Under the pieces are notes generated by a model. That model worked only from the letters and a program-made list of their open reading frames with translations. It did not search any database and was not told the DNA's origin. From positions 124,001-188,000 of the forward strand of contig NZ_JAUSRH010000003.1 of NCBI RefSeq assembly GCF_030811715.1: a stretch of DNA of 64,000 bases. The letters run 5' to 3'. This document shows, piece after piece, positions 6,498-28,126 of this stretch (its first letter is position 1; every line of letters begins with the position of its first letter). A program made the translations under genes and the position numbers. This DNA comes from Sinomonas atrocyanea (GTDB taxonomy: Bacteria; Actinomycetota; Actinomycetes; Actinomycetales; Micrococcaceae).

Positions 6498-8177
6498 CTA
6501 TGCGCCGGGGGCGAGCGTCACGTGGTTGAACGTCTCGTTCAGGACGGGCGACGTCGGGTAGGTCGCCACCCGCGCGGAGACCGCCACCGCGGAGATCGGG
6601 TACGCGATCGGCACCGCCGGGGCACTCGAGCCGATCTGGCCGTTGACGTTCTGGTACGCCTGGGTGCGCTCGTTGCCGTCCGGCAGCCCGCGGGCGCGTT
6701 CGATCTTGCTGAAGATCTGGGCGTCGAAGAAGCCGAACTCTCCGCTCTTGGCCCCGAAGAGGGGCGCGAGGAAGTCGTCGGGGTCGCTGTAGCTCCCGTA
6801 GCGGCCCAGCAGGTGGAAGGCGTGGTCCCCGGCGGTCGTGACCTTCTGCAGGTACCCGTCGGCCCAGTCCACCGGCACCGGCTTGATGTTCAGGCCCAGC
6901 AGCGTCAGCTGGGCAGAGAGCTCGGCGTAGACCTTCTCGGGGTCGGGCAGGTAGAGCCGTGTGACATTGAGCGGGTAGTAGAAGGGGAGCTCCTCGCCCT
7001 TGTAGCCCGCCTCGCTCAGGAGCCGCTTGGCCTTCTCGGGGTCGTAGGCCGGGAAGCCGCCCGCGGCGTTGAAGCCGCTGAGCTTCGGTGGGACGAACTG
7101 CGAGGCGGACTTCGTGTCCTCGAGGAAGAACGGCTTGATGACCGCGTCCTTATTGATGCCCATCGCGATGGCCTGGCGCACCTTGTCGTTCTGCAGGAGG
7201 GGCACGGCCTGGTTCATCCCGAGGTACATGACCGAGAACGGGTCGCGCCGCACCACCTGCAGGCCCTTGCGGACCAGGGTCTCGATGTTCTGCACGGTCA
7301 CGGCGTCGTAGCCGTCGATGGTCCCGGCCAGGAGCGCCCGCAGCCGCGCCTGCGGCGTGTCGTACACCACGAGCGTGAGCTGGGAGATCTGGCCCCGGGC
7401 GCCCCAATAGGTCGGCGAGGACTCCAGGACCACGGAGTCCTTGGTCCACTGGCGGAACCGGAACGGGCCGGTGCCCACCGGGTGCTGGGCGTAGCGGGAG
7501 ATCTTCGTCCCCGACGAGGGCTGGTCCTCGACGTCGGCGGTGCCGGCTTTGAGCGCCGCGGGGGAGGAGATCGCGAAGGCGGGGGTGGTCATCGCGGCGA
7601 GGAAGCTCGTGAGCGGCTGGGTGAGCTCGATGCGGACCTCGTGCTCGCTCACTACCGTGCACCGCTTGTAGACGGACAGGGACGCCTGGTCGGAGTGGGC
7701 CTTGAACACCGCGGTGAAGGCGAGCCCTGTGTGGTTCGAGCGGAACTGCGGCGAGAACGCGTACCACCGGTCGAAGTTCGCCTTCACCGCTGCGGCGTTG
7801 AACGGGGTGCCGTCGTGGAAGGTGACGCCCTCCCGGAGGGTGAACGTCCACGAGAGGAGGTCTGTGCTCTGGGTCCACGAGGTGGCGAGGGACGGCGCGG
7901 GCGCCCCCGTGTCGGGGTCGCTCGTCACGAGGCATTCGAGGACCTGGCGCGTGACGCGCCATGACTCGATGTCGGCGGTGACGGCCGGATCGAGTGCGAT
8001 CGGCGGTGCCGGGGTGGCGAAGGTGAAGGACGCGCTGGGCGCAGTGGACCCGCTCGGACTCGGCGACGGCTGCGGATTGGGCGAGGGCGTGCATCCGGTC
8101 AGGAGCACCGCCGCCGCTGCCGCCTGGAGGAGTTCCCTCCGCCTCATGGTCCGCGCGCCACTCACGACCTGTCTCAC
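6498..8177 (-). CDS. ABC transporter substrate-binding lipoprotein, family 5 (peptide/opine type)
   Basis: An extracellular solute-binding protein of about 559 residues. It has a lipoprotein signal peptide (RRRELLQAAAAAVLLTGC) with lipobox cysteine, a Pro/Ser linker, then the SBP family 5 fold. Visible motifs are TFTLREGVTFHDGTPFNAAA, the GTGPFRF element, and KVRQAIAMGINKDAV. Such proteins deliver oligopeptides, nickel or similar ligands to a membrane permease. No permease or ATPase gene follows, so it is an orphan or its partners are elsewhere. The GTG at 8177 has GGGGAG 8 nt upstream; the ATG at 8147 also gives a complete signal peptide, so the start is uncertain by 10 codons. Confidence 0.88.
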   Translation of the reverse strand: MRQVVSGARTMRRRELLQAAAAAVLLTGCTPSPNPQPSPSPSGSTAPSASFTFATPAPPIALDPAVTADIESWRVTRQVLECLVTSDPDTGAPAPSLATSWTQSTDLLSWTFTLREGVTFHDGTPFNAAAVKANFDRWYAFSPQFRSNHTGLAFTAVFKAHSDQASLSVYKRCTVVSEHEVRIELTQPLTSFLAAMTTPAFAISSPAALKAGTADVEDQPSSGTKISRYAQHPVGTGPFRFRQWTKDSVVLESSPTYWGARGQISQLTLVVYDTPQARLRALLAGTIDGYDAVTVQNIETLVRKGLQVVRRDPFSVMYLGMNQAVPLLQNDKVRQAIAMGINKDAVIKPFFLEDTKSASQFVPPKLSGFNAAGGFPAYDPEKAKRLLSEAGYKGEELPFYYPLNVTRLYLPDPEKVYAELSAQLTLLGLNIKPVPVDWADGYLQKVTTAGDHAFHLLGRYGSYSDPDDFLAPLFGAKSGEFGFFDAQIFSKIERARGLPDGNERTQAYQNVNGQIGSSAPAVPIAYPISAVAVSARVATYPTSPVLNETFNHVTLAPGA

Positions 8178-8280
8178 GCCTTTCGCTCCCCGCCGCATGT
8201 CCGGCGCCCTTGTGTCCCTGGGTGTCGACCTGCTCGGCCGGGTGTCCGCCCCGAGGAGGCCGGACTGGGGCCGGAGGCGG

Positions 8281-8362
8281 TGCGCGAGGAGGGACTTGAA
8301 CCCTCACGTCCGAAGACACAGGAACCTAAATCCTGCGTGTCTGCCAATTCCACCACTCGCGC
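8281..8362 (-). tRNA. tRNA-Leu (anticodon UAG)
   Basis: An 82-nt cloverleaf on the minus strand has a 7-bp acceptor stem (GCGCGAG / CTCGCGC), a long variable arm typical of tRNA-Leu, the T-loop GTTCAAGTC, and the anticodon loop TTTAGGT giving UAG. The 3' CCA is not encoded. It would read CUA, a rare codon in this GC-rich genome, and CUN codons by wobble. Confidence 0.95.
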
Positions 8363-8391
8363 GGCACCCCGCCTCTGGCGGGGCAACTCGA

Positions 8392-8886
8392 TCAGTGTAC
8401 CGGCAGGATCTTCAGGTCCCGCTGGAGCTTGGCGACGTGGCCCTTCGCCCGGACGTTGTACTGCGCGAGCTCGATCCGCCCGTCGGCGCCGACCACGAAC
8501 GTGGACCTGATCAGGCCCTGGTAGGTCCGCCCGTAGTTGACCTTCTCGCCCCACGCCCCGTACGCCTCCGCGACGCTGTGGTCCTCGTCGGCGAGGAGCC
8601 GGAACCCGAGGTGCTGATCCGCGGCGAAGCGGCGCACGGCCTCGGCCGGGTCCGGCGAGATGCCCACCACAGTGAGTCCGGCGTCGGCGATCGCCGCGAG
8701 GCTGTCGCGGAAGTCGCAGGCCTGCTGCGTGCACGCCGGAGTGTTGGCCTGAGGGTAGAAGTAGACGACGGTCCTCTGGCCCGCGAGGTCCGCGAGCGAC
8801 GTCGTCCCGCCGTCGGAGTCGGGGAGCGAGAAGGCGGGGGCGGCGTCGCCCGCCGCGAGTCGGTGGGAGGGTCCAGTCGTGGTCAC
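8392..8886 (-). CDS. bcp: Thioredoxin-dependent peroxiredoxin, Bcp/PrxQ type
   Basis: This 164-residue cytosolic peroxidase reduces hydroperoxides. The peroxidatic cysteine is Cys52 in ANTPACTQQAC and the resolving cysteine is Cys57, the five-residue spacing of E. coli BCP. The Trp-less fold core VVYFYPQANTP and the C-terminal STFVVGADGRIELAQYNVRAKGH are typical. The start is a GTG with no ribosome site; a TAGGCT box lies exactly 6 nt upstream, so the mRNA is probably leaderless. It sits between two tRNA genes and is transcribed toward tRNA-Leu. Confidence 0.93.
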   Translation of the reverse strand: MTTTGPSHRLAAGDAAPAFSLPDSDGGTTSLADLAGQRTVVYFYPQANTPACTQQACDFRDSLAAIADAGLTVVGISPDPAEAVRRFAADQHLGFRLLADEDHSVAEAYGAWGEKVNYGRTYQGLIRSTFVVGADGRIELAQYNVRAKGHVAKLQRDLKILPVH

Positions 8887-8984
8887 GCACCGAGCCTAGC
8901 GTCAGTCGGCGCGGTGCCCCGAGAGACCAGTGCGCGGGCCCCAGCTGCGTGTGAGGCACCTCACCTGCGCAGCCGCCCGGTCGA

Positions 8985-9014
8985 TTTCGCTTTTCGAAAG
9001 ACGTCCTGTAGAGT
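8985..9014 (+). promoter_or_regulatory. Possible promoter for tRNA-Lys
   Basis: TTTCGC and TAGAGT are separated by 18 bp and end about 60 bp before the tRNA-Lys gene. The -35 match is weak, so this is a suggestion only. Confidence 0.3.
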
Positions 9015-9075
9015 TTCATGTCGTTGCGGGGCACGGAGACGGGTCGGAAACGGCCGGTCGGACCGCGGCGAAGAT

Positions 9076-9148
9076 GCGCCTCTAGCTCAACTGGCAGAGC
9101 AATTGACTCTTAATCAATGGGTTCCGGGTTCGAGTCCCGGGGGGCGCA
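9076..9148 (+). tRNA. tRNA-Lys (anticodon CUU)
   Basis: A 73-nt cloverleaf has acceptor GCGCCTC / GGGGCGC, D-loop AGCTCAACTGGCAGAGC, and T-arm CCGGG-TTCGAGT-CCCGG. The anticodon loop CTCTTAA gives CUU. Unlike the other tRNAs here, the CCA tail is encoded (9149-9151). Confidence 0.95.
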
Positions 9149-9152
9149 CCAC

Positions 9153-9194
9153 AACCCCTTCCCGACCCGCGGAAACGCGGACCGGGGAGGGGTT
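9153..9194 (+). terminator. Terminator after tRNA-Lys
   Basis: A two-part stem pairs AACCCCTTCCC with GGGGAGGGGTT (one wobble) and an inner CCGCG-GAAA-CGCGG, followed by TTTCTT. It is a typical factor-independent terminator placed directly behind the tRNA. Confidence 0.75.
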
Positions 9195-9310
9195 TCTTCG
9201 TGTTCGCGCAGCATAGATGCCGAGCTGGTCAGCGAGGCGCTGTCTCCGGGCCCTATTCCTCTGGGGACGGCAACCGCCGGGCGCGACCATTGCATGCGGA
9301 GGTGATTCCC

Positions 9311-23654: not shown

Positions 23655-24764
23655 ATGGTGTCGATCGAGCCCGCGAGGGGACTGTCAGCGGACGCGGCCG
23701 CGGAACCGGCAGCCACGGATTCCGCCGCCACGGACTCCACGGCCGCGGACTCCACCGCCGCGGACTCCACGGCGGGGGAGAACATCGCGGAGGCTGCCCG
23801 GGCCGCGGCGGGGGAGTGGCCGGGCCGCGCGCTCGGGCTCGCCCGCCGGCTGGGCGGCACCGCACCGTTCCCCGGCGAGGGCCGGACGAGCGAGCTGTGG
23901 GACCTGTTGGCCGCCCTCGGGGCCGCTGACCTCTCCGTGGCACGGGTCGTCGAGCCCCACCTCGATGCCCTCGCCATCCTCCGCCAGGCCGGGCTCGGCC
24001 GGCCCGAGACCGGGACCGTCTGGGGCGTGTTCGCGGCCGAGGGGCCGGGAGTGAAGCTCAAGGCCCGCCGCACGGCCGAGGGCTGGCGGCTGCAGGGGAC
24101 CAAGCCCTGGTGCTCGCTCGCGGGGGCGCTCAGCCACGCGATCGTGACCGCGCACACCGGCCCGGACACGAGGCGCGCCTTCGCCGTCGGGCTCGGACAC
24201 CCCGGGGTGGCGGTCCGCGAGGGCGGGTGGCACGCGCTCGGCCTCCCCGGCATCCCCAGCGGCCCGGTCGAGTTCGACGGCGTGCCCGCCGAGCCTGTGG
24301 GCGAGGACGGCTGGTACCTCGAGCGGCCCGGCTTCGCGTGGGGCGGGATCGGCGTCGCGGCCGTCTGGCACGGCGGCGCCCTCGGGGTGGCCCGGCGGCT
24401 GTGGGCCGCGGCCTCCCAGCGGACCCCAGACCAGATCGCCCTCGCGCACCTCGGCGCGGCGGACCTCGCGCTCGGGACCGCCCAGGCGGCCCTGGCCGAC
24501 GCCGCCGCGGCCGTGGATGGGGGCGTGGCCGAAGGGGCCGCGGGGGCGCTCCTGGCGCTGCGCGTGCGGGGAACCGTCGCGGCGGCGGCCGAGACGGTCC
24601 TTGGGGTCGTCGACCACGCCCTCGGGCCCGCCCCGCTCGCCTTCGACGCCGAGCACGCCCAGCGGGTCGCGGACCTGCGGCTCTACCTGCGCCAGCACCA
24701 CGCCGAACGGGACACCGCGGCCCTCGGCCGGGCACTGCTGGAGGCGGGGGAGCAGCCGTGGTGA
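23655..24764 (+). CDS. Acyl-CoA dehydrogenase-like flavoprotein
   Basis: A 369-residue protein of the acyl-CoA dehydrogenase superfamily. After a low-complexity N-terminus with a fourfold pentapeptide repeat (ATDSA/ATDST/AADST), it shows the middle beta-domain pattern (WGVFAAEGPGVKLKARR, then GWRLQGTKPWCSLAG) and a helical C-terminal domain ending LYLRQHHAERDTAALGRALL. The usual NA after the WCS position is replaced by LAG, and I could not place a catalytic glutamate, so the reaction is uncertain. The ATG has TACGGT 6 nt upstream (leaderless). Its stop overlaps the start of the PIG-L gene (GTGA). First gene of a three-gene operon. Confidence 0.8.
   Translation: MVSIEPARGLSADAAAEPAATDSAATDSTAADSTAADSTAGENIAEAARAAAGEWPGRALGLARRLGGTAPFPGEGRTSELWDLLAALGAADLSVARVVEPHLDALAILRQAGLGRPETGTVWGVFAAEGPGVKLKARRTAEGWRLQGTKPWCSLAGALSHAIVTAHTGPDTRRAFAVGLGHPGVAVREGGWHALGLPGIPSGPVEFDGVPAEPVGEDGWYLERPGFAWGGIGVAAVWHGGALGVARRLWAAASQRTPDQIALAHLGAADLALGTAQAALADAAAAVDGGVAEGAAGALLALRVRGTVAAAAETVLGVVDHALGPAPLAFDAEHAQRVADLRLYLRQHHAERDTAALGRALLEAGEQPW
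23712..23771. repeat. 15-bp tandem repeat, 4 copies, inside the acyl-CoA dehydrogenase gene
   Basis: Four 15-bp units of the form GCCGCGGACTCCACG start at 23712, 23727, 23742 and 23757. They encode the repeated N-terminal pentapeptide of the dehydrogenase-like protein. The period keeps frame, so the copy number could vary without breaking the gene. Confidence 0.85.
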
Positions 24765-26140
24765 GCTTCAGCCACCTCGACGCCGGCACCCCTGAGGCCC
24801 TCTGGGTCCGTGACGAGCGCCTCGCTGCGACGCCCCCGCTGGACCTCGCGGGGCTCCGCGCCCTCGTGGTCCTCGCCGCCCACCCCGATGACGAGACGCT
24901 CGGCGCCGGCGGCCTCATCGCCCACGCCGCCCGCTCGGGCGCCGCGGTGCATGTGGTCGTCGCGACAGACGGCGAGGCCTCCCACCCCGACTCGCCAACC
25001 TTCAGTCCCGAGCTGCTCGCCGAGATCCGCCGTGGAGAGGTCCGGGCCGCGGTCGGCGCGCTCGCCCCGTCGGCCACCCTCCGATGCCTCGGCCTCCCCG
25101 ACGGCGCCCTCGCCGACCACGGCCCGGCACTCGAGCGGGCGCTGGGAGAGGCCGTCCGCGACGCGCTCGGTGAGGAGGCCGCCGGAGGGGACTGGGCCGG
25201 CGTCGTGCTCGCGGCACCGTGGCGGCACGACGCCCACACGGATCACGACGCCGCGGGCGCCGTGGCCGCGCGCGTGGCGGGCGAGGCCGGCGTGGCGCTG
25301 CTGGAGTACCCCGTGTGGATGTGGCACTGGGCCGCCCCCGGGAGCCCGCAGGTTCCGTGGGCAGAGGCCCGGCGGCTCGAGCTCGCCCCTGCGGTCAGGA
25401 GCGCCAAGGAGCGGGCCCTCGCGCTGCACGTCAGCCAGACGTCGCCGCTGTCGGAGCACTCCGGCGACGAGGCGCTGCTCAGCCCCGGCATGCAGGAGCA
25501 CTTCGAGCGCGGCTTCGAGCTCTACTTCGCCTCGCCTCCGCGGGACGCCGGGGCGACCTTCGACGCGGTGCACGCCGCGAGCCCGGACCCTTGGAACTTC
25601 ACGACCAGCTGGTACGAGCGGCGCAAGCGGGCCGTCACCCTCGCGGCCCTCCCGGCCGCGCGGTACCGGCGGGCGCTTGAGGTGGGCTGCTCGATCGGCG
25701 TCCTCACCGGTGAGCTGGCCGAGCGGGCCGATGAGGTCGTCGCGACCGACGTCAGCCCGCGGGCCCTCGAGCGGGCGGCGGAGCGCCTGCCCCACGCCGC
25801 TGCCATCAGCTGGGAGCACCGCCGCCTGCCGCAGGAATGGCCCGAGGGCGCCTTCGACCTCATCGTCGCCTCGGAGGTCGGCTACTACTTCGGCCCCGCC
25901 GAGCTGGACGAGTTCGTGCGGCGGTGCCTCGGGAGCCTCACGGACGACGGCGCGCTGGTCGCGTGCCACTGGCTCGGCGCCATCGACGGCTGGCAGCTCA
26001 CCGGCGAGGACGTGCACGCGCGCCTGCGGGCCGAGGCTGGCCTCGAGACCGTGGTGCACCACCGAGAGCGGGACTTCCTGCTCGAGGTCTTCGCGAAGCC
26101 CCCCGCAGCGTCCGTGGCGCAGCGCGAGGGCCTCGCATGA
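24761..26140 (+). CDS. Bifunctional PIG-L family deacetylase / SAM-dependent methyltransferase
   Basis: A 459-residue fusion. The N-terminal half (to about residue 230) is a PIG-L/LmbE-type zinc deacetylase with the metal motif AAHPDDETLGAGG near residue 42 and HTDHDAAG near residue 160; this family removes N-acetyl groups from amino sugars. The C-terminal half is a class I methyltransferase resembling NodS, with motif I EVGCSIGVLTGELAERA near residue 308 and ATDVSPRALERA. NodS proteins N-methylate a de-acetylated glucosamine, so the two halves could act in sequence on one substrate. Start overlaps the upstream stop (GTGA); the next gene overlaps the end (ATGA). Confidence 0.85.
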   Translation: MSFSHLDAGTPEALWVRDERLAATPPLDLAGLRALVVLAAHPDDETLGAGGLIAHAARSGAAVHVVVATDGEASHPDSPTFSPELLAEIRRGEVRAAVGALAPSATLRCLGLPDGALADHGPALERALGEAVRDALGEEAAGGDWAGVVLAAPWRHDAHTDHDAAGAVAARVAGEAGVALLEYPVWMWHWAAPGSPQVPWAEARRLELAPAVRSAKERALALHVSQTSPLSEHSGDEALLSPGMQEHFERGFELYFASPPRDAGATFDAVHAASPDPWNFTTSWYERRKRAVTLAALPAARYRRALEVGCSIGVLTGELAERADEVVATDVSPRALERAAERLPHAAAISWEHRRLPQEWPEGAFDLIVASEVGYYFGPAELDEFVRRCLGSLTDDGALVACHWLGAIDGWQLTGEDVHARLRAEAGLETVVHHRERDFLLEVFAKPPAASVAQREGLA

Positions 26141-26844
26141 GCGGAAGGCACGCGATCTCGGACGTCGTGGTGGTCATCCCGGCCAAGGACGAGGAGGAAC
26201 TGCTTCCGGGCTGCCTGCAGTCGGTCGAGGTGGCCGTGCGCGAGCTCGCGGCGGCGGCCCCCCGTGTCCGCGTGGGCGTGACCGTTGTCCTGGACGGCTG
26301 CCGCGACGGATCGGCGGATGCCGTGGCGCGGTGGCCCCGGGCGCGGACGGTCGAGGGCGAGGCCGGGGGCGCGGGCGCGGCGCGGCGCCTCGGGGTGCGG
26401 CATGCGCTGTCCCGGGCAGGGGCGCCGAGGGATCGGGTCTGGATCGCCTCGACCGATGCGGACAGCAGGGTGCCGCGGGACTGGCTCGTCGAGCACGTGG
26501 CCCTCGCGGAGTCCGGCGTCGGGCTCCTGCTGGGCACCGTGGTGCCCGACCCCGCGGACCTCGATCCGGAGCGCCTCGCCGCCTGGCACGGCGCCCACCG
26601 GCTCGCCGACGGACACGGCCACGTCTTCGGGGCGAATCTCGGCGTACGGGCGGACGTCTACGGTGCGGCCGGGGGATTCCCCGCGCGGGCCTCGGGGGAG
26701 GACGAGGCGCTCGTCCTGGCCGCGAAGGCGCTCGGCGTGCGGTGGCGGGCCACCGACGCCTGCCGGGTGGTCACCTCGGGGCGGCTGCGCGGACGGGCGC
26801 CCGGCGGCTTCGCCGACTACCTCGCGGCCGCCCTGCCCTCCTAG
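26137..26844 (+). CDS. Family 2 glycosyltransferase
   Basis: A 235-residue cytosolic GT-A fold transferase. The nucleotide-binding N-terminus VVVVIPAKDEEELLPGCLQS, the VLDGCRDGSADA segment and the metal-binding DXD-type ASTDADSRVP are visible, as is GEDEALVLAAKALG near the C-terminus. It uses a nucleotide sugar; donor and acceptor are unknown. Its ATG overlaps the stop of the deacetylase/methyltransferase gene by four bases, which argues for a joint pathway. No membrane segment is present. Confidence 0.85.
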   Translation: MSGRHAISDVVVVIPAKDEEELLPGCLQSVEVAVRELAAAAPRVRVGVTVVLDGCRDGSADAVARWPRARTVEGEAGGAGAARRLGVRHALSRAGAPRDRVWIASTDADSRVPRDWLVEHVALAESGVGLLLGTVVPDPADLDPERLAAWHGAHRLADGHGHVFGANLGVRADVYGAAGGFPARASGEDEALVLAAKALGVRWRATDACRVVTSGRLRGRAPGGFADYLAAALPS

Positions 26845-26853
26845 CCCGATCCC

Positions 26854-26937
26854 GCGAGGTCACCCCGTGGGTGCGCGAGGTCACCGGGTGGGTGCGCGAG
26901 GTCACCGGGTGGGTGCGTGAGGTCACCCCGTGGGTGC
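26854..26937. repeat. 21-bp tandem repeat, 4 copies (array A)
   Basis: Four units start at 26854, 26875, 26896 and 26917, each a version of GCGAGGTCACC(CC/GG)GTGGGTGC. Each unit contains GGTCACC. The same core in reverse orientation and with the same 21-bp period forms array B at 28022-28126. The two arrays flank the gene at 26973-27938. Confidence 0.88.
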
Positions 26938-26972: not shown

Positions 26973-27938
26973 CTACGCAGCCGGAAACAGGGCGTGCGGG
27001 GTCGTGAGGAAGGCGCGCACCTTCGCACGGAGCGCTACCGGATCGTCGAGTTCCGGCCAGTAGATGTTGAGTACGCGCCACCCGGCGGCCACCAGCCGGG
27101 CTTCTCGTTCCTGCTGAGCGGACACCTTGGCATCCGGCGGCCCGTAATCAAAGTACTTGGCGTATCCGTGGACCTCGATGACGACCCGGCGATCGACCCA
27201 GGCGAAGTCGACGCGCTCGCGGCCGCGCGCCGTCGTGATCCACCGCTGGAGTTCCGGCTCTGGAAGGTTCCATTCCTCCAACAGCAGCCGGAGCCTGGTC
27301 TCAGCGGGTGACTCTGACCGGCCGTCGGCCGCCTCAAGGACCTCGCGTGCCCTCCTGATTCCGCGGGTCCCCTTGGCGTCAGCGACGAGCTGACGCAGGA
27401 CGAGGTGGTCGGCGCCGTGGGCGAGCCCAGAGTCGGCGATGACGACGGCGAGTTCGAACGGCAGCATGCGGGCGCAGTCGAGGATGGTGCGCTCGAGCGA
27501 GGTTACCGCCAGGCCGTTGACAATGCGGATCTGCGTCTCAGGGATGCGCTGGTTGTGGCGCACCACGTCGTCGTTCGGACCGCAATCGCCGCGGCGTCCG
27601 GCGTGCGCGACATGGACGAGAGGGCGGCAGCGCCAGACTGAAAGTCCCCAGATCAGGGCAGCAGAGGTGTAGGAGTAGACGTGCGAGCCGCCGGTTGCGG
27701 CTGCGTTGTGCGCGCAGATGCGGACAACCATGGGATCCGGCGTCCCCGCCAGCGGCGCCGTATAGATGCCTCGCTCGCGCCGCACCAGGTCCCCGGATTC
27801 GGTCAGGGCACGGATGGCGCCGGGACTGATCCCGGCGGAGACCAGCATTGATCGCTGCAGCATCGGGACAGGAGAGAGCGCGTCGTCGCCGAGTTCTTGG
27901 AGCACGCGGCGCTCATGGGGATTGAGGTTGAGGTCCAT
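26973..27938 (-). CDS. AbiEi-like / DUF559 endonuclease-fold protein
   Basis: A 320-residue protein. The N-terminal third resembles AbiEi-type antitoxin winged-helix domains (MLVSAGISPGAIRALTESGD, RRERGIYTAP, then TSAALIWGL). The C-terminus looks like the DUF559/Vsr-like nuclease fold, with ERVDFAWVDRRVVIEVHG and ERDARL-like EREARLVAAGWRVLNIYW. Such orphan proteins are common in Micrococcaceae and their role is untested; defence or DNA repair are guesses. The ATG at 27938 gives MDLNLNPHERRVLQEL; a longer frame to 27998 lacks support. No AbiEii toxin lies nearby. Inverted 21-bp repeat arrays bracket the gene on both sides. Confidence 0.7.
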   Translation of the reverse strand: MDLNLNPHERRVLQELGDDALSPVPMLQRSMLVSAGISPGAIRALTESGDLVRRERGIYTAPLAGTPDPMVVRICAHNAAATGGSHVYSYTSAALIWGLSVWRCRPLVHVAHAGRRGDCGPNDDVVRHNQRIPETQIRIVNGLAVTSLERTILDCARMLPFELAVVIADSGLAHGADHLVLRQLVADAKGTRGIRRAREVLEAADGRSESPAETRLRLLLEEWNLPEPELQRWITTARGRERVDFAWVDRRVVIEVHGYAKYFDYGPPDAKVSAQQEREARLVAAGWRVLNIYWPELDDPVALRAKVRAFLTTPHALFPAA

Positions 27939-28021
27939 GCCTGGAGTCTGGCGCAGCAGTCCCGTTCTTAGACCGACTGGGATGCTGTATGTGGACAACC
28001 GGTGCGGATCGGTTGCCCTAC

Positions 28022-28126
28022 AGGGTGACCTCGCGCCTCCGCGGGGTGACGTCGCGGGCCTTTGGGGTGACCTGGCGCCTCCGCGGGGTGACCTCGCGGC
28101 TCTGCGGGGTGACTTCGCGGCTGCCC
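28022..28126. repeat. 21-bp tandem repeat, 5 copies (array B, inverted relative to array A)
   Basis: Five units start at 28022, 28043, 28064, 28085 and 28106 with the consensus GGGGTGACCTCGCGCCTCCGC. The core GGGGTGACCTCGC is the reverse complement of the array A core. The array lies between the AbiEi-like gene and the leuB promoter. Confidence 0.88.

Follow-up and report, generated by a model that had tools for sequence, protein, structure and literature searches.

Nod factors are built with a GT2-type glycosyltransferase (GT), deacetylation and N-methylation, while mycothiol and aminoglycoside synthesis make use of PIG-L deacetylases. A GT2, a PIG-L enzyme and a NodS-like methyltransferase (MT) are together the tools to add, free and methylate an amino sugar. 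A three-gene cassette encoding these activities next to a flavoprotein of the acyl-CoA dehydrogenase (ACAD) fold was found in a 64,000-nucleotide stretch of Sinomonas atrocyanea DNA (contig NZ_JAUSRH010000003.1, positions 124,001 to 188,000; hereafter the window, numbered from its first letter). The cassette is a new combination of known enzyme kinds, and its genes are one unit kept in distantly related bacteria, including those of other phyla, where it is reshuffled and often split.

The three open reading frames (ORFs) lie exactly where an earlier reading of this DNA (the original prediction) had placed them, and the four-base overlaps that it reported at both junctions were confirmed. The features are given below, the recurrence of the overlaps in related loci being counted from script-called starts.

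23655–24764, + strand: ACAD-fold flavoprotein, probably a flavin-dependent oxygenase, with Gln347 at the position of the catalytic Glu (ATG start, 369 amino acids)
24761–24764, + strand: GTGA start/stop overlap of genes 1 and 2 (same four-base overlap at the ACAD/PIG-L junction in 52/79 related loci)
24761–26140, + strand: PIG-L deacetylase/NodS-like MT fusion (GTG start, 459 amino acids)
24866–25273, + strand: PIG-L domain, residues 36–171, with AHPDDE and HxDH zinc motifs (Pfam and alignment)
25580–26095, + strand: NodS-like class I MT domain, approximately residues 274–445 (Pfam and structure comparison)
26137–26140, + strand: ATGA start/stop overlap of genes 2 and 3 (four-base overlap at the MT/GT junction in 38/63 related loci)
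26137–26844, + strand: GT2-type GT with TDAD and ED motifs and no membrane-like segment (ATG start, 235 amino acids)

Related loci were collected in one scan of a genome collection with the PIG-L/MT protein as query, and the best 80 of at least 500 loci encoding a relative, a set biased to close relatives, were compared. All four parts were present in 75 of the 80, the flavoprotein in 79 and the GT in 76; only the last two counts test linkage because the loci were found via PIG-L and MT. The original prediction had staked the unity of the genes on their staying together in other genomes; they do stay together, and it therefore survives its own test. The PIG-L and MT parts are encoded by a single gene in 67/80 loci and by two adjacent genes in 13/80, split versions that had not been foreseen. 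Gene order also varies, with the GT first in several loci and on the opposite strand in those of Bacteroidota. A distance-correlation check, from which nine listed loci and the loci without a GT call were omitted, gave r values of 0.66–0.86 (68 loci; no species-tree control).

Within the genus, the fusion is found in 5/15 genomes, including that of the window, and the remaining four carriers have the cassette placed between leuB and metG, one of them with approximately 5.5 kb of additional sequence ahead of metG. One of the five copies has a frame break; in the close relative G297 a break falls in the MT half (locus L043, ~8630–9220) and may reflect decay or a sequencing error. In a phylum sample of 296 genomes, one or both halves of the fusion were matched in 31 genomes and the flavoprotein in 32. 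The two coincide in 29 of the 34 carriers, three having the flavoprotein only and two the fusion only (Fisher p ~2e-34 for co-occurrence, from comparison of the two lists across the 296 genomes). Three of the five mismatched genomes have an adjacent partner at a lower score or a contig edge, and the remaining two have, in the stretch read, the flavoprotein only and the MT only, respectively.

In other phyla, the PIG-L/MT profile matched 38/299 Pseudomonadota and 6/148 Bacteroidota genomes, some of the matches being single-domain. Twenty further Pseudomonadota windows all contained the flavoprotein and the MT (20/20 each), with the family's PIG-L in 15/20 and the GT in 14/20. Copies were also identified on named plasmids of Acinetobacter, Comamonas, Cupriavidus, Bradyrhizobium, Kitasatospora and Deinococcus, in some of which a part is absent or displaced; a Nostoc plasmid matches the fusion and also the flavoprotein and GT clusters. 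It is very probable that the three genes act in a joint pathway. Some loci count against a complete four-activity pathway: a phylum carrier (G096) has the flavoprotein and PIG-L with no MT or GT within ~18 kb; five Rubrobacteraceae-type loci (L052, L055, L056, L057 and L059) have no ORF with the HPDDE motif within ~18 kb; and the 20 Pseudomonadota windows include five that lack the family's PIG-L (one of which has another PIG-L) and six that lack the GT. Loci without PIG-L, such as those of the Rubrobacteraceae type, are the main loose end of a pathway reading.

The middle protein, as had been proposed, fuses a PIG-L deacetylase to a NodS-type MT, with Pfam matches to PIG-L (PF02585; 80.4 bits against a cut-off of 28.2, residues 36–171) and NodS (56.7 bits against 24, residues 274–399). 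In an alignment of 45 of the 67 fused loci with the window protein (46 rows), the PIG-L zinc residues H41, D43, D44, E45, D157, H159, D161 and H162 are invariant. The model of the fusion has a mean pLDDT of 94.7. The structure nearest to the MT half is 4isc (43% identity, TM by target 0.94), and comparison with NodS bound to S-adenosylhomocysteine (3ofk) gave a TM by target of up to 0.84, so that the likeness to NodS holds by both profile and fold. The fusion scored below the NCBIfam equivalog cut-offs for NodS (66.5 against 300 bits) and for MshB/BshB (31.3 against 224.35, 37.8 against 195.25 and 35.1 against 182.5), and all three window proteins are below the naming cut-offs of this database. 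In some Pseudomonas or Pseudomonas-like loci a second PIG-L gene lies beside the cassette (L201, 10308–11123; L198, ~8020–8787; L134, ~7590–7964), which hints at two deacetylations. The only PADLOC match was that of the MT domain of the fusion to mad2 (61.6 bits), with none for the flavoprotein or GT, and a defence system was rejected, the match being generic.

The third protein matches Glycos_transf_2 in Pfam (44 bits against a cut-off of 23.3), and its residues T106, D107, D109 and E188, of the TDAD and ED motifs, are invariant in 46 rows. A hydropathy scan found no 19-residue window above 1.6 in any of the three window proteins, and Pfam identified no acyltransferase among them. The original prediction had allowed for an acylated or lipid-linked product; this part was rejected, as the three proteins have no membrane-like segment, no partner gene was seen and the flavoprotein has no dehydrogenase Glu.

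A related explanation is that the cassette modifies a glycan of the cell surface or a sugar linked to a lipid, with the GT2 adding an N-acetylhexosamine to a polyprenyl carrier or cell-wall glycan and de-N-acetylation and N-methylation altering its charge. The GT is weakly similar to EpsD, MftF and PpgS-type GTs, an ABC exporter and another GT lie near the Bacteroidota loci, and glf and further GTs near those of Deinococcus. Hydrophobic stretches above 1.6 also occur in some relatives of all three proteins (17/54 flavoprotein, 5/46 GT and 11/46 fusion rows). The window proteins themselves, however, have no membrane-like segment, and among the recurrent neighbour families identified, only some of which were named, there was no flippase, polymerase or polyprenyl-phosphate enzyme. 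PIG-L enzymes, moreover, usually work on small GlcNAc conjugates. A surface role is considered unlikely.

The first protein has a single Pfam match, to the ACAD middle domain (Acyl-CoA_dh_M; 34.2 bits against a cut-off of 33.3), and its model (pLDDT 91) has the ACAD fold. Its sequence reads KPWCSLA, lacking the NA after WCS as first noted. Ordinary acyl-CoA dehydrogenases carry a catalytic Glu at the YEGT position; on alignment with eight ordinary ACADs of the same genome this column is Gln347 (His348 in the ungapped register). Gln347 is invariant in 54/54 aligned sequences from Actinomycetota, Pseudomonadota and Bacteroidota (53 of 79 loci plus the window protein; further relatives were omitted, L090, L111, L127, L129 and L131 as partial or overlong). 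Gln is likewise found in 29/29 further sequences from Actinomycetota (including three of the Rubrobacteraceae type), Pseudomonadota and Deinococcota; H102 and R305 are kept throughout these and the window protein, and position 100 is Glu in all but three, which have Asp. The RxxFGxxL motif, which has a role in FAD binding, is absent from the seven cassette rows displayed alongside the eight ordinary ACADs. Judged from its sequence, the flavoprotein stands firmly apart from ordinary acyl-CoA dehydrogenases, in keeping with the initial suspicion that it is probably no beta-oxidation enzyme, and an annotation as acyl-CoA dehydrogenases is probably wrong for these Glu-to-Gln flavoproteins.

A search of the PDB with the profile of the flavoprotein family placed DszC and TdsC at the top (~1e-14), alongside 5z8t, titled a flavin-containing monooxygenase, and 5gj7, titled a putative acyl-CoA dehydrogenase; ColB1 came next, followed by the SCADs (~1e-10) and the nitrososynthases (~1e-6). 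In NCBIfam, a Deinococcus relative matched SfnB (81 against a cut-off of 430.9) and DszC (50.6 against 850), and a Pseudomonas-like relative matched SfnB best (46 bits, below the cut-off). These data point to an oxygenase. Counting against this assignment, the window flavoprotein and an Acinetobacter relative had no NCBIfam match, so that the window protein and all three relatives tested are below the curated-family cut-offs for group D flavin monooxygenases. Within the genus, the cassette profile scores Glu-bearing ACADs at 46–61 bits and SfnB-like proteins at 21–26, and Foldseek (50 matches listed, all of the ACAD superfamily) mixes dehydrogenases with oxygenases without separating them. Because the genus profile scores and Foldseek cut against it, an oxygenase is held to be only moderately likely, while the exclusion of an ordinary ACAD is firm. 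Foldseek was rejected as a discriminator of the two groups, and PF08028 was dropped as a monooxygenase marker because ordinary Glu-bearing ACADs match it too.

It is doubtful that the flavoprotein is instead a genuine dehydrogenase or oxidase that relies on an unusual base and desaturates, but does not oxygenate, a sugar or acyl intermediate. Its best-scoring relatives within the genus do bear the Glu, and ColB1, which has the ACAD fold and dehydrogenates a tethered cysteine, ranks among the better matches; yet Gln occupies the Glu column of all sequences examined, RxxFGxxL is missing from the rows displayed and no ETF gene was found among the recurrent neighbours identified. Group D flavin monooxygenases work with oxygen and a separate flavin reductase. 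A Pyr_redox_2 (pyridine-nucleotide oxidoreductase) gene is present in Rubrobacteraceae-type cassettes, between the MT and GT in the five such loci named above, and the window cassette has no reductase gene. The Deinococcus flavoprotein (L065, 5560–6840) is extended at its N-terminus by ~400 residues, for which Pfam gave no match.

A link of the cassette to trehalose, alpha-glucan and stress genes in Pseudomonadota, which goes beyond the original prediction, was seen in its surroundings. Stress genes lay near the cassette in 8/20 Pseudomonadota windows and in 0/20 control windows (p 0.003), or in 11/20 and 0/20 with GlgX, which was added afterwards and sought in the controls too. The list (catalase, OtsA, OtsB, GlgE, Ku, LigD, Dps, ferritin-like, PA2169, DUF72 and others) was drawn from the plasmid loci and an actinobacterial SDR, and was fixed, slightly altered from an earlier version, before the 20 windows were viewed. 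SDR (2/20 cassette windows and 2/20 controls) and PfpI are excluded from the count of eight. The cassette windows were picked from the 38 matching genomes for a strong match and enough contig, and the controls came from 13 genomes, of which only G310 lies outside the 20 cassette genomes. Near other loci Dps, SigB and SDR were counted with no control.

In some loci the cassette adjoins trehalose genes directly. A Comamonas locus (L062) has the order otsA-ACAD-PIGL-MT-GT-otsB, and two others (L202 and L211) otsB-otsA-ACAD-PIGL-MT-GT. In the Pseudomonas-like locus L201, where no GT was found, the flavoprotein ORF begins where GlgX ends; glgA and treZ, encoded on the same strand, lie further upstream. 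In P. syringae DC3000, glgA, treZ, malQ, treY and glgX are given as PSPTO3125–3130, and trehalose was reported to be undetectable once these genes were deleted (PMC8982409). The cassette is presumed to lie downstream of them in this strain; no paper was found in the open-access literature for the locus tags that come next. Against a stress role, the genes around the cassette in the window (17–34 kb read) are mostly for amino-acid metabolism and tRNA synthetases, with no stress genes, and the stress reading is therefore carried over from Pseudomonadota. From this analysis, such a role for the cassette appears reasonably likely.

Less probable than either rival above is that the cassette serves competition, and not stress protection, by making a specialised metabolite similar to an aminoglycoside or a thiol. 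The combination of GT, PIG-L and N-methylation is the strategy of aminoglycosides and lincosamides, the patchy carriage in the genus (5/15 genomes) fits an accessory metabolite and a LacI-type regulator gene recurs near eight loci. No resistance gene was found among the recurrent neighbours identified, however, and the cassette is compact, spread over phyla and placed within trehalose operons in some Pseudomonadota.

The best explanation as a whole, given about an even chance, is a single four-activity cassette for a soluble, stress-linked, N-methylated and oxidised amino-sugar metabolite. The GT2 would move a sugar, most likely an N-acetylhexosamine, onto a small acceptor; the PIG-L half, whose motifs are present, would strip the N-acetyl group at its zinc site; and the fused NodS-like half, whose fold is established, would methylate the freed amine with S-adenosylmethionine (SAM). 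The flavoprotein, as a flavin-dependent oxygenase of the DszC/nitrososynthase kind, may then oxidise the amino sugar or the aglycone. N-methylation of an amino sugar by the cassette is likely in its own right. Such a pathway is predicted to yield a soluble metabolite inside the cell, formed when the cell is under osmotic, desiccation or oxidative stress, the timing being proposed because of the trehalose-operon and catalase neighbours in Pseudomonadota. More tentatively, bacteria of at least five phyla may share an undescribed stress branch leading to an amino-sugar glycoside that is both N-methylated and N-oxidised, perhaps built on trehalose or one of its precursors, with the Glu-to-Gln flavoprotein oxidising in the manner of a nitrososynthase.

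Of the original interpretation, the single unit, the NodS-like MT and the flavoprotein outside beta-oxidation stand, and the acylated or lipid-linked product does not. Its statement that no described pathway is known to have this exact set also holds for the open-access literature searched, including passages of PMC8982409 and PMC8719888. A cassette kept across Micrococcales, Pseudomonas, Acinetobacter, Bacteroidota and Deinococcus probably has a useful product, and its position beside trehalose and alpha-glucan genes in some Pseudomonadota suggests that an unseen metabolite could account for part of the benefit attributed to these operons.

In the window, ilvB, ilvC, serA and metG lie upstream of the cassette, and downstream come an AbiEi-like ORF on the opposite strand and, beyond it, leuB and ilvE (names from reading the translations); a promoter and terminator scan found none. 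The AbiEi-like ORF (26973–27998, − strand) is flanked by two 21-base tandem arrays, at 26852–26936 (GCGCGAGGTCACC..GTGGGTG) and, in the opposite sense, at 28015–28122 (GGGGTGACCTCGCG). Three close relatives, with gaps of ~60–120 bases from the GT to leuB, have no match to it there, and a fourth has it.

Among known systems, the closest solved relative of the MT half is 4isc, a putative methyltransferase from Pseudomonas syringae, which differs in being a single-domain protein with no substrate assigned in its entry. Trifunctional GT/MT/polysaccharide deacetylase proteins (e.g. of Sulfitobacter) are annotated with the same three kinds of activity in one protein and include a stretch similar to the MT half, but their deacetylase is of the polysaccharide-deacetylase type and not PIG-L, their architecture is different and there is no flavoprotein in the stretch seen. 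The flavoprotein resembles the group D flavin monooxygenases (DszC/SfnB and KijD3/DnmZ) in its fold, its best PDB profile matches, the CS and W..xG motifs (in the DszC alignment) and the lack of the catalytic Glu, but is shorter and scores below their NCBIfam cut-offs. In mycothiol and bacillithiol synthesis (MshA/MshB and BshA/BshB), a GT acts first and a PIG-L enzyme then de-N-acetylates a small GlcNAc conjugate, a sequence that the cassette would share, while it falls short of the MshB/BshB equivalog cut-offs and adds N-methylation and a flavoprotein. The likeness to Nod-factor tailoring by NodC, NodB and NodS lies in deacetylation followed by N-methylation of a GT2-made amino sugar and in the match of the MT half to the NodS family and fold; unlike the Nod system, the cassette, whose fusion is under the NodS equivalog cut-off, has PIG-L in place of NodB, a short GT without membrane segments in place of NodC, and an extra flavoprotein.

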